Below, in pieces: positions 39,415 to 47,191 of a DNA stretch of 64,000 nt. Where the stretch lies: positions 1 to 64,000 of the forward strand of contig JAFIGH010000008.1 of assembly GCA_020831525.1 (NCBI GenBank), read 5' to 3'. Source of the stretch: Opitutales bacterium (lineage in GTDB: Bacteria; Verrucomicrobiota; Verrucomicrobiia; Opitutales; Oceanipulchritudinaceae). How positions within the stretch are numbered: the stretch's first letter is position 1; each line of letters starts with the position of its first letter. Position numbers and translations under genes: made by a program. The notes below the pieces were generated by a model that had not been told where the DNA came from, did not search any database, and saw only the letters and a program-made list of their open reading frames with translations.

Positions 39415-40428
39415 ATGGGATTCTCCACGTTGGAACTGTGTGCGGGCGCGGGCGGACAAGCCATCGGCTTGGAACGCGCCGGTTTCGAATGCGCCGCCGC
39501 CGTTGAGATCGATCCGCACGCCTGCGCCACCCTGCGCGCCAACCGCCCGGCGTGGAACGTCCTTGAGGCCGACCTCCGCTCCTTTGACGCCCGCCCGTAC
39601 CGTGGCGTCGATCTTGTGGCGGGCGGCGTTCCCTGCCCGCCGTTTTCCGTAGCCGGCAAACAGCTCGGCGACGCCGACGAGCGCGACCTTTTTGCCGAAG
39701 CGCTCCGTGTCGTCGAGGAGGCGCTCCCGACAGCCGTGCTTTTGGAGAATGTTCCCGGTTTCGCTTCGGCAAAGTTCCTGGGCTACCGCCGCCGTCTCCT
39801 CGCGCGCGTCCATGCCATGGGCTACACGGCGGACTTCCGGGTGCTCAATGCATCCGGCTATGGTGTCCCGCAACTGCGCCCGCGCTTTGTCCTCGTGGCC
39901 CTGCGGGAGCGCTTTGCGGAGCGCTTCGAGTGGCCGCAGCCCGCGCCCTGCGAAACGACGGTCGGACGACTCCTCGCCGACCTCATGGGTGCCAACAACT
40001 GGCCCGGATGCGCGCGCTGGGTAGCCAAGGCGGACGGCATCGGCCCCACCATTGTGGGCGGATCGAAGAAACACGGCGGCGCCGACCTCGGCCCCACCCG
40101 CGCCAAGGCAAAATGGCTCGAACTGGGCGTCGACGGCAAGGGTGTCGCCGACGAAGCGCCCGCCGCCGATTTCCCTGTCGACGCCCTGCCCCGGTTGACC
40201 GTGCGGATGGTAGCCCGCTTGCAGGGGTTCCCCAACGATTGGGCGTTCGCGGGACGCAAGACCGCGGCCTACCGCCAAGTCGGCAACGCCTTCCCCGCCC
40301 CCGTCCCCGCCGCCGTGGCCGCAATGATCGCACGCGCCCTCGACGGAACGCGCTCCGTCCCCTACCGCTGCGAGGCCGGAGGACAGGTGTACCACTTCCA
40401 GCGGGGGCGGAAGTCGCTCACAGGGTGA
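39415..40428 (+). CDS. DNA (cytosine-5) methyltransferase
   Basis: 337 residues. All key motifs are present: I (LELCAGAGGQAIGLERAG), IV with the catalytic Cys74 in PCPPFSVAGK, VI (ENVPGF), VIII (QLRPRFVLVAL), IX/X (RLQGFPNDW; AYRQVGNAFPAPV). The target-recognition region (about 190-260) is compact. It forms 5-methylcytosine in a specific site and is probably the modification part of a type II R-M unit with the convergent nuclease gene 49 bp away. Confidence 0.93.
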   Translation: MGFSTLELCAGAGGQAIGLERAGFECAAAVEIDPHACATLRANRPAWNVLEADLRSFDARPYRGVDLVAGGVPCPPFSVAGKQLGDADERDLFAEALRVVEEALPTAVLLENVPGFASAKFLGYRRRLLARVHAMGYTADFRVLNASGYGVPQLRPRFVLVALRERFAERFEWPQPAPCETTVGRLLADLMGANNWPGCARWVAKADGIGPTIVGGSKKHGGADLGPTRAKAKWLELGVDGKGVADEAPAADFPVDALPRLTVRMVARLQGFPNDWAFAGRKTAAYRQVGNAFPAPVPAAVAAMIARALDGTRSVPYRCEAGGQVYHFQRGRKSLTG

Positions 40429-40477: not shown

Positions 40478-40951
40478 TCACGATGCGGATTGTTCTCCTT
40501 GGGTATTCTTCCCGGAGACGGCGGTGAGCGCTGCAAGATAATCCGCGATCTGCGACCAATTCTCGCGAAAGATCTCGCGATCCGTGAGATGCTTTAAATC
40601 GACCTTGCTCCATTGCTTGTCGCGAGGCAGATCTCGAATTACACCGACAGGAAACACGTAGTAATCTGGCGACAATACTTGCTTCTTACCATCCTTAGAA
40701 CCACGGTTCAGGAACGCTGCGACCACAAATTCACAATCAAAGTTACTAATCGGAAAACCTGATGCGCCAGTCCGCCAGCGGCTCTTCACTTGGATTCTTG
40801 CGGAGGTGTTGTGCTCGGGATCAGTCGCAATCAAATCGTATCCGGGCATGTTCGTGTAGGTCTTGTAGGCAGCGATCTTGTGCAAGAGTAGCTGTCCGAG
40901 AACCAGAAACTCGGCTCCCTCACTTTCGAGGCGTGTATTGAGTCTCTTCAT
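40478..40951 (-). CDS. PD-(D/E)xK nuclease-like protein, candidate restriction partner
   Basis: 157 residues. A helix with Glu (EGAEFLVLGQLLLHK) is followed by MPGYDLIATD (Asp39) and ARIQVKSRW (Gln54-x-Lys56), a D...QxK version of the PD-(D/E)xK site. The frame is AT-richer than its neighbours. It is tail-to-tail with the C5 methyltransferase and may be its endonuclease; a general hypothetical nuclease is the alternative. Family not identified. Confidence 0.6.
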   Translation of the reverse strand: MKRLNTRLESEGAEFLVLGQLLLHKIAAYKTYTNMPGYDLIATDPEHNTSARIQVKSRWRTGASGFPISNFDCEFVVAAFLNRGSKDGKKQVLSPDYYVFPVGVIRDLPRDKQWSKVDLKHLTDREIFRENWSQIADYLAALTAVSGKNTQGEQSAS

Positions 40952-44268: not shown

Positions 44269-45630
44269 CTAACTCATTGAGCCGATGGGCCGCTCCAGGA
44301 GCGGCAGCATGACTCCCTTGCGGAAAAGTGTGACTTGCCCGGTGCTCGAACTCACGCAAATGGCGAGGCAGTCGGCCGCGCGGGAGATCGCGGCGGCGGC
44401 CGAATGGCGCGCCCCGAACCCGCTCGGCAGGTCCTCGTAAAACTCGGACGGCGCGTGGATGAGGCTACCCGCCGATTCGATGACACCGTCGCCGCGGATG
44501 ACGAAACAACCGTCGATCACCGAAAACTCCTTGATCGTCTCGTCCATGAAGGGATTGAGGACATTGCGTTCTTCCTCGCGGTAGCCGTGGAAGGGATTGA
44601 GGACGAGCGACTTGACCATCTGATTCACCTTCCCGGAATCCCCGAGGACAAAGAGGCACCCGACCGGCTTGCCCTCGCGGCCCTCCACCGCCAGCTCCGT
44701 TGCGATCCCCAGCATCCGCTCCACCACCTCGATCTTCACCGAACCGGGCAGGATCTCGCTCTCGCGGTCGATTACACTCTGGAACTCCCGCTCCACGTCG
44801 ACGACAAGTATCGTGTCGAGGAGATTGCTCGATGGAATGCCCCCCACGCAGCAAAGCCGGTCACTGTATTTGAAGAGCCCCCGTGTCAGCCCGATGAGGA
44901 TGGCGCTGCGCACCTGCGAGAGGCGTTGCCGCGAGAAAGACCGCACCTCGATGCACGTCTCCGCACTCGACCCCTGCGTCGATTGGTCGCCAGCCGCGCG
45001 CGTCACGAGGATCGTACGGTAGCGGGGGAAGCCCTCCGTCAGCTCGATACCGCCCGCAAACGTATCACTGAAGATCAGCACGGCGGCGCAGCGGGCGTCG
45101 CGCGCCACTTTCTCCGCCTCGCGCAGAAAGAGGCGGTTGAAGCGGTTGCGGCGGCGCTCGGGCTTTGCGAGGAGGCCGCCGAATGCAAGGAAGACCCGCT
45201 CTTGGAACGTGCGCGTGTCCGGTGCCCCCACGATGCGCTCCACAAGATCGCGGCTGCGGAAGAGCCGCGCGAGCGAGGCGAGAACGTTGAGGTAGTTCTT
45301 CTCCGTCTCGGAGGCAAGAAGGAGGAAGATGAGGCGAACGTCTTTGTAGTCACCGCGCCCGTCGAACTCGATCCCCGACGGCACACGACCCACCGCGAAG
45401 ATGTAGGGCCGCTTCATCTTCACGCGCAGGTGCGGCATGGCCACGCCGTGCCCGAGGTAGGTTGTCATCGTCTTTTCGCGGTTGAGCAACTGCGCGACGA
45501 TACGCTTGGGATTCAGCTCGTCACTCGAGCGGTAGACGGAGACGTTGAGCAGTTCGAGGAGAGCCCCCTGCAAATCGTTGCTCTCGATCTCGATAATGCG
45601 CGACTTGGCGATGTACCGATCAAGCCGCAT
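44269..45630 (-). CDS. PTS EIIA domain fused to a CdaZ-like diadenylate cyclase (DisA_N) domain
   Basis: 453 residues. Residues 1-155 match a fructose-type EIIA domain, with the phospho-acceptor His67 in GHGVAMPHLRV and the following IFLLLASETEKNYLNVLASL. Residues 160-290 form an unassigned alpha/beta region. Residues 293-445 look like the diadenylate cyclase domain of the CdaZ type: AVEGREGKPVGCLFVLGD, LNPFHGY, DGCFVIRGDGVIESAGSL, FGARHSAAAAIS. The catalytic DGA motif is DGC (373-375) and RHR is RHS (408-410). If active it would make c-di-AMP under phosphotransferase-linked control. No other PTS gene is in the window. Confidence 0.8.
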   Translation of the reverse strand: MRLDRYIAKSRIIEIESNDLQGALLELLNVSVYRSSDELNPKRIVAQLLNREKTMTTYLGHGVAMPHLRVKMKRPYIFAVGRVPSGIEFDGRGDYKDVRLIFLLLASETEKNYLNVLASLARLFRSRDLVERIVGAPDTRTFQERVFLAFGGLLAKPERRRNRFNRLFLREAEKVARDARCAAVLIFSDTFAGGIELTEGFPRYRTILVTRAAGDQSTQGSSAETCIEVRSFSRQRLSQVRSAILIGLTRGLFKYSDRLCCVGGIPSSNLLDTILVVDVEREFQSVIDRESEILPGSVKIEVVERMLGIATELAVEGREGKPVGCLFVLGDSGKVNQMVKSLVLNPFHGYREEERNVLNPFMDETIKEFSVIDGCFVIRGDGVIESAGSLIHAPSEFYEDLPSGFGARHSAAAAISRAADCLAICVSSSTGQVTLFRKGVMLPLLERPIGSMS

Positions 45631-45696: not shown

Positions 45697-46071
45697 TCAT
45701 TTGTCCCATTCGAGCGCGCCTTTCTTCAACTCGTAGACCAAGCCCACGACGAGAACAAGTATGAAAAACAGCACCGGCATCAGAATCGGCAGGTTCTGCG
45801 CCAGAAAATCCCGGTAGACGAGGACCCACGGGATGAGAAAAACGACCTCGATATCGAACACGATGAAAAGCATCGCCGTGAGGTAGAACTTCACGCTGAA
45901 ACGGGTCGTTGCTCCCCCGGCGGCCGGCATCCCGCATTCGTAGGCAGAGTCTTTGACCGAATTGCGCGCCGCCCGCTGGCCGAGCAGATGACTCGCACCG
46001 AGGATGACGACGGCGAGGAAAAGCGCGATCAGAATCTGGATGAGAACCGGCAGGTAGTCGTGCAAAGTCAT
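45697..46071 (-). CDS. nuoA: NADH-quinone oxidoreductase subunit A
   Basis: 124 residues from the ATG at 46071; the longer open frame upstream overlaps the neighbouring gene. Three membrane helices; the conserved loop DSAYECGMPAAGGATTRFSV and FYLTAMLFIVFDIEVVFLIP are diagnostic. This is the small membrane subunit at the quinone-site entrance of Complex I. No nuoB follows; the next genes on the strand are the EIIA-cyclase fusion and rpmG. Confidence 0.95.
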   Translation of the reverse strand: MTLHDYLPVLIQILIALFLAVVILGASHLLGQRAARNSVKDSAYECGMPAAGGATTRFSVKFYLTAMLFIVFDIEVVFLIPWVLVYRDFLAQNLPILMPVLFFILVLVVGLVYELKKGALEWDK

Positions 46072-46141: not shown

Positions 46142-47191
46142 TCACCGTATCCGCTTAACGCGCGCCTGCCGCGCAAGCCCGTGGCCGACACCGAGCTGCA
46201 CCGCGTAGTCCAGTTGAGGCAGGGCCATCGGCAGGGTGTGGAAACGGTTGGCTTCGCGGTGCTCGTTGATCCGCTCGAGCATAAGCGCGTCGAGCACCGC
46301 CGGGTCCGCCGAGAGCAGCACGCGCGGTTCGCTCTTGGAATAGAGCGAGCGGAAGTGCGGCCCGCCAATAAACTGGTAGCGCTCCAGCGTCAGCAACGTC
46401 AGCGCCCAGGAGGCTTTCAACTCCGGGATCGCCGCGATCTCCGCCACCGCGATCGGCGCATTCGCCTCGCTGATGAAAAACCGGCTGTTGTTGCTGATAT
46501 TCCATAGCGTAGCGTTGACGAGCGCACCGTTGACGCCGAGGGCGGGGTGGTCCGTCACCATTGGCAAATTGATCCAGAAATCCACCCCGACGAGTAGATC
46601 CTCCGGAAGAAAGCTCTTCCGCGTCACCACCGAAGGCACGTCGATGTCACCGAAAATCCGTTGTGCCAGCGGACTCGAAAACTCGCGCGGGAGCGGGCTC
46701 TCGTAATACCAAAGATCGCTGAACAACTCACCGGAATCAAGGTAACGCACCGGCACACCGTCAAAGTAATCCCCCTCCGGACGCCGCGAAAGGGGAGGCA
46801 GATAGCCCGCCGCACGCAGTCGCGACTCCTGCGCGTCGAGAAGAAACAGTTCCCCGCGCTCAAATCCGCGGCGGCGCAGCGCCGTGACGACCGCACGCGT
46901 CAGCGCCCGCGGCGTCGCCAGCCCCGGCCCCGAATTGGTGTAGATCTTCAGCCCCGCACGCCGGTGCTCGCCCGGCTCCAGTCGCTTCCCCGTCGCCTCC
47001 TCGAACTCCCGGAAGAGAGCCTCCACCGCGGATTCGTAGTGCTGTTCCGCGAATCCGTCCACGCCGTACTCCCACACCCTTCCGAGAAATGGAGCGCGCG
47101 CCTCGTCCTCGAATCCCCAGAACGCTCCCCCCGACGGAAGCGACAGTAAGAGAATTGCCAAAACGGGAACTCCGATTTTTTCTAAACCCAT
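46142..47191 (-). CDS. Secreted DUF362-like protein
   Basis: 349 residues from the ATG at 47191; the open frame further upstream is antisense to the TPR gene. Short signal ([17 protein letters not shown]). [20 protein letters not shown] then [30 protein letters not shown] and [20 protein letters not shown] follow the DUF362 pattern. No ferredoxin cysteines are seen. Divergent from the TPR lipoprotein gene by 27 bp. The family match is moderate. Confidence 0.6.

Follow-up and report, generated by a model that had tools for sequence, protein, structure and literature searches.

The window analyzed here, a stretch of 64,000 nucleotides from an Opitutales bacterium, encodes a 453-amino-acid protein in which a PTS EIIA domain, a DacZ_P domain, and a diadenylate cyclase (DAC) domain follow one another in a single chain, and its gene is the sole DAC gene of the genome. 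The open reading frame lies on the minus strand (44269..45630), with the ATG at 45630 and the stop codon at 44269-44271. The reading that we favor, and regard as reasonably probable, is that two N-terminal sensor modules set the output of this only cyclase, with HPr~P acting on the EIIA domain, with or without a metabolite acting on the middle domain.

Pfam places all 3 domains above its curated cut-offs. PTS EIIA of type 2 (PTS_EIIA_2) is found at residues 41-143 (45202..45510, minus strand) with 74.7 bits and E = 1 × 10−20, DacZ_P at residues 162-284 (44779..45147, minus strand) with 60 bits and E = 2 × 10−16, and DAC (PF02457) at residues 314-440 (44311..44691, minus strand) with 71.6 bits against a cut-off of 27 and E = 5 × 10−20. 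A preliminary description of this DNA, made from the letters alone, had read an EIIA module with a phosphohistidine context in front of a CdaZ/DacZ-type cyclase region, and both parts of that description hold: the motifs GHGVAMPH with His67, LFVLGD, NPF, DGC, and ARHSAA (407-412) are all present. It had suggested a profile search and a structure prediction as checks; the EIIA and DAC models both match as just given, and the predicted C-terminal part folds like CdaA and DisA (Z = 14-16.6). It gave no strand, and it missed the pyruvate-kinase-like domain that lies between the other two. The structure model of the full sequence has a pTM score of 0.55, and the packing of the domains on one another is uncertain.

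The genome of the host (5.3 Mb in 184 contigs, 100% complete) was searched for DAC, and the 453-amino-acid fusion was the single match. The closest named records, at 98% identity, are metagenome-assembled genomes (MAGs) labeled 'Opitutales bacterium', and full-length homologues with 42-98% identity extend across the order, being found in nearly all relatives searched. An apparently split gene in one genome (G027) was rejected as a candidate, the break in the gene being a contig break. The dN/dS ratios against two relatives at 98% identity are 0.009-0.036 across every domain, with 0.012-0.036 for the EIIA part. Because of the order-wide homologues, the low dN/dS, and the explanation of the split gene, the fusion is confirmed as real, neither a chance joining nor a single fusion artifact.

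In the order as a whole, DAC is found in 95 of 105 genomes, mostly in one copy and in a frame of about 450 amino acids. Frames of about 300 amino acids lacking the EIIA domain occur in 4 small genomes (G178, G193, G194, and G233). There is also a second, divergent DacZ type with no EIIA and with the motif DGG (G198, G207, and G224); its loci (L160, L162, and L161, in the same order) combine DGG with RHL or RHV, and in 2 of the genomes this gene stands alongside the normal fusion gene. A separate DAC gene of the CdaA type is present in a few genomes of a single genus. Two distant members of Verrucomicrobiota (G039 and G069; loci L134 and L135) also have the full-length protein, with the domains confirmed, and the rest of the class, as GTDB defines it, gives matches of the EIIA type only. 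Two patterns of absence were seen along the way. One family (f20) has Enzyme I (EI) and HPr, and in it the EIIA domain is degenerate in 4 genomes (G189, G200, G218, and G231) and DAC is absent in 4 others (G035, G209, G226, and G237), as if the entire c-di-AMP system were under loss. In another genome (G217, a single contig of 2.3 Mb), DAC, EI, and HPr are jointly absent; its relatives in the genus have DAC and HPr, and all but one have EI.

The EIIA domain had been called fructose type in the preliminary description, which does not stand, as the nearest relatives by both sequence and structure are PtsN/EIIA-Ntr and not the EIIAs of sugar permeases. By sequence the nearest is PtsN (E = 1.7 × 10−9), and the predicted fold, covering residues ~1-153 (45172-45630, minus strand), matches EIIA-Ntr (PDB ID: 1a6j) with Z = 18.7 over 146 residues at 2.5 Å. 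Alignment puts the predicted phosphorylation site at His67 in the motif VAMPHLR (45430..45432, minus strand), and the first alignment made of the family has this histidine in 110 of its 111 rows. Arg51 is present in 75/79 order proteins from genomes with EI. At the place of the second conserved active-site His of PtsN there is Tyr113 (45292..45294, minus strand), a replacement shared by 86 of the 88 EIIA-containing proteins from the order.

What could phosphorylate such a domain was looked for with profile searches of the host genome, which returned one HPr, a full EI, and two EIIA domains. A search for the EIIC family PF02378 (PTS_EIIC), and for that EIIC family only, gave no match in the host genome. 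With EI, HPr, and two EIIA domains and no PF02378 permease, the host PTS looks regulatory. Pfam shows no GAF domain in the host EI, which sets it apart from a typical EI-Ntr. Besides the fused domain, the host has a single EIIA (L170:1404-2129, on contig C49), which is joined to a helix-turn-helix domain, HTH_17, and adjoins an ABC transporter ATPase gene; it is a second regulatory EIIA of this genome.

If His67 is phosphorylated through the PTS, its retention might be expected to follow the phosphate donor. The 105 order genomes were searched for EI (PF05524) and HPr (PF00381), and the DAC genes were fetched and position 67 was read, which gave 92 genomes for comparison after exclusion of the divergent G198 type. 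Where EI is present, His67 is kept in 71/78 genomes and lost in 7. Where EI is absent, it is kept in 4/14 and lost in 10, including 4 genomes in which the entire EIIA domain is gone and the cyclase is retained. Fisher's test over the 92 genomes gives p = 2 × 10−6, a value that ignores kinship. Because the species are related, trait models were also fitted on a tree of the DacZ_P plus DAC part. In these, His is lost at a rate of 0.93 where EI is lacking versus 0.085 where it is present (LR = 9.57, 1 df, p = 0.002). The full model with 8 rates yields p = 0.018, and in a parametric bootstrap under independence the observed LR was reached in 1/150 runs. An independent-pairs test has only 3 pairs to work with, a number that cannot reach significance. 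EI was lost on only about 3-4 branches, nearly all of them in small genomes (0.8-1.1 Mb) with widespread gene decay, and incomplete MAGs may account for some of the EI absences. The link has exceptions on both sides, namely the 7 losses of His67 in genomes with EI, which belong to two lineages (f4 and f20), and the 4 retentions in genomes without it. Taken together, the statistical dependence of His67 on EI gives moderate support to a working phospho-switch. Since the EIIA domain decays or is deleted in EI-less genomes and the cyclase stays, EIIA is the dispensable part of the protein. The proposal in the preliminary description that the fusion would be a PTS-linked c-di-AMP synthase gains support, at the level of genome comparison, from the presence of EI and HPr in the host and from the way His67 retention tracks EI.

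The middle domain was predicted alone, with a pLDDT of 81, and all 50 of the matches listed are pyruvate kinases, with Z = 13.2-13.9. They align over the C-terminal allosteric domain of those enzymes. A fold of this PK_C-like kind has been described for DacZ/CdaZ (PMC6741144), in agreement with the prediction. On the strength of that modeled fold, the domain probably adds a second input of a small-molecule kind, through a putative ligand.

In the mechanism that we propose, phosphate would pass from PEP to EI, to HPr, and then to His67 of the EIIA domain. Phosphorylated and bare EIIA would pack differently on the neighboring domains, which would probably alter how two cyclase domains face one another. 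Catalysis by DACs requires two subunits, and a change in their facing would move c-di-AMP synthesis up or down. The pyruvate-kinase-like middle domain would probably serve as the second, small-molecule input, and the likely outputs would be K+ and ion transporters. Because the host is without PF02378 permeases, the phosphorelay would report the PEP/pyruvate or energy state and not the uptake of a single sugar, which suggests that these cells set c-di-AMP by their PEP/energy state.

The strongest competing explanation is that the EIIA domain is a docking module, whose phosphorylation state picks the transporter or regulator (such as TrkA, KdpD, or an antiporter) to which the cyclase is brought, so that c-di-AMP is made beside its targets at an unchanged rate. 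Bare PtsN does bind and control TrkA, KdpD, and YcgO, and with them K+ transport, in Escherichia coli (PMC13104625), KdpD is a target both of PtsN and of c-di-AMP (PMC6488665), and here the EIIA is PtsN-like in a host genome that has TrkA. The fusion itself, however, suggests an intramolecular role, and the dependence of His67 on EI fits docking and rate control alike; we consider docking unlikely. Alternatively, information might flow the other way, with nucleotide binding or c-di-AMP synthesis by the DAC domain controlling an EIIA that acts as the output, either as a phosphate sink or donor or as a regulator. The architecture alone gives no direction, and in proteobacteria it is as regulatory outputs that the free EIIA-Ntr proteins act. 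Against this, it is the EIIA that EI-less genomes lose and the cyclase that they keep, so the cyclase is needed without it, and in haloarchaea the DacZ cyclase is the essential, product-forming part, as in Haloferax volcanii where DacZ makes c-di-AMP with Mn2+ (PMC6741144). We regard reversed flow as quite improbable. That the EIIA is a vestige or a structural spacer with irrelevant phosphorylation could draw on Tyr113 in place of the second active-site His and on the two lineages that have EI and no His67, but it sits badly with the near-universal His67 of the first family alignment, with the high retention of both His67 and Arg51 where EI is present, with the low dN/dS of the EIIA part, and with the concentration of His67 loss in EI-less lineages; we rate it as very improbable.

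For the cyclase itself, the preliminary description had raised the concern that DGA reads DGC (residues 373-375, 44506..44514, minus strand) and RHR reads RHS (residues 408-410, 44401..44409, minus strand), so that the domain could be altered or degenerate. D373, G374, R408, H409, R318, and E319 are identical in 93/93 order proteins. At the third position of DGA, 80 of the same 93 proteins carry A, 6 carry G, 5 carry C, and 2 carry S, with the small-residue variants A, C, G, and S all occurring in the family to which the window belongs. The third position of RHR varies among A, S, G, L, M, and T in the order, A and S being the most frequent. In haloarchaea, proteins with a DacZ annotation have DGA and RHH, and an Opitutales protein of the CdaA type has RHA. 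Alignment gives the DAC part 35% identity to those haloarchaeal proteins, and H. volcanii DacZ, from this related family, is an established Mn-dependent c-di-AMP synthase (PMC6741144). The model NF041371 for haloarchaeal DacZ scores 109.8 bits, above the 28-30 bits of the CdaA and CdaM models, and as its equivalog cut-off of 430 bits is not reached, the protein is a relative and not an equivalog of haloarchaeal DacZ. Given the invariant residues, the variation of the motifs in DacZ- and CdaA-type relatives, the low dN/dS, and the predicted fold, we read DGC and RHS as family variation and not decay; a degenerate cyclase was rejected, and to judge from these comparisons the cyclase is not degenerate. 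The related idea that DGC and RHS mark an inactive domain, kept as an ATP sensor or a scaffold, is hardly credible when most of the order has A at position 375 and the window's own family has C, G, or S there, when the third RHR position is free (H in haloarchaeal DacZ), and when D, G, R, and H are invariant in the sole DAC of the genome.

Directly upstream of the DAC gene and on the same strand is nuoA, encoding NADH dehydrogenase subunit 3 (45697..46071, minus strand), an arrangement found in 74/81 loci. Upstream of nuoA in 60/81 loci comes a conserved protein of ~349 amino acids with no Pfam match (46142..47191, minus strand, with the start codon picked by eye). Downstream and convergent are Mrp and a small DUF4032-like protein in 38/81 loci. 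We set nuoA aside as an operon clue to function; it looks like a conserved linkage and yields no mechanism. Elsewhere in the window, an open reading frame at 39415-40428 (plus strand) reads like a DNA cytosine methyltransferase, and the small adjoining one at 40478-40951 (minus strand) is a possible nuclease partner.

Candidate partners for c-di-AMP are present in the host genome. TrkA_C domains are carried there by TrkA, a Na+/H+ exchanger, a CitMHS protein, and a transporter of the AspT type. RCK_C/TrkA_C domains are a known class of c-di-AMP target, and by analogy the host TrkA and TrkA_C transporters are plausible targets here. A 343-amino-acid DHH-DHHA1 protein in the same genome might degrade c-di-AMP. 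At the gathering threshold, neither a c-di-AMP riboswitch nor another RNA family was found in the window and the stretches near TrkA_C genes. An unusual pairing was noticed on host contig C57 (L150), where a RimK-like ATP-grasp protein ends in a TrkA_C (RCK_C) domain, a potential binding site for nucleotides such as c-di-AMP.

The DAC class names come from Corrigan and Gruendling 2013, where DacD is reportedly a PTS-EIIA fusion. Five DacD representatives, all verrucomicrobial, are given in Braun et al. 2019 (Lacunisphaera limnophila, Coraliomargarita, Puniceicoccaceae, Opitutae, and Verrucomicrobia; PMC6741144). The lineages agree with ours, the Lacunisphaera and Puniceicoccaceae loci carry the full-length EIIA-DacZ_P-DAC protein, and a single DAC per genome is usual in the order, so we file the 453-amino-acid protein as a member of the listed DacD class. 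The preliminary description knew of no experimental characterization of this architecture; our literature search likewise found no experiment on an EIIA-diadenylate cyclase fusion or on DacD, although the class itself was already listed. Among the closest known systems, DacZ and DacY-CdaZ (H. volcanii DacZ and Methanocaldococcus jannaschii CdaZ) share the nearest DAC domain and a pyruvate-kinase-C-like domain in front of it (PMC6741144), whereas the archaeal proteins have ~270 amino acids and no EIIA, and the haloarchaeal N-terminus matches another Pfam model (DACZ_N). EIIA-Ntr/PtsN shares fold, sequence, the phosphohistidine, and Arg51, and the host PTS is likewise without a PF02378 EIIC; it differs in that here the EIIA is part of a cyclase fusion and has Tyr113 in place of the second His, and that the host EI has no GAF. 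CdaA and DisA share the DAC fold and the DG and RH motifs, but the 453-amino-acid protein has neither the CdaA_N transmembrane domain nor the DNA-binding part of DisA. To DacD as listed, the present analysis adds a third domain and the fold predicted for it, the status as sole DAC, the regulatory host PTS, and the dependence of His67 on EI.

As for significance, this would, if the favored reading is right, be the first DAC known to us with such a phosphorylation input, and to our knowledge the signals that set c-di-AMP synthesis are largely open for most cyclases. Here a candidate signal lies inside the protein, as a phosphorelay domain that is prone to lose its phospho-site together with the phosphate donor. 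The genome comparison makes DacD directly testable, with one protein, one His, two helper proteins, and one product. The broader proposal is that PTS histidine phosphorylation and a pyruvate-kinase-like allosteric domain together exert direct control over the main c-di-AMP synthase of the whole order, which would tie the PEP/pyruvate node to a K+/osmotic messenger; we put this forward tentatively, at a little short of even odds. Placing a PtsN-like domain on the sole c-di-AMP synthase would connect the PtsN and c-di-AMP routes of K+ control and, if the proposal is true, unite them in one protein, which offers a possible reason for PtsN and c-di-AMP both acting on K+ transport.
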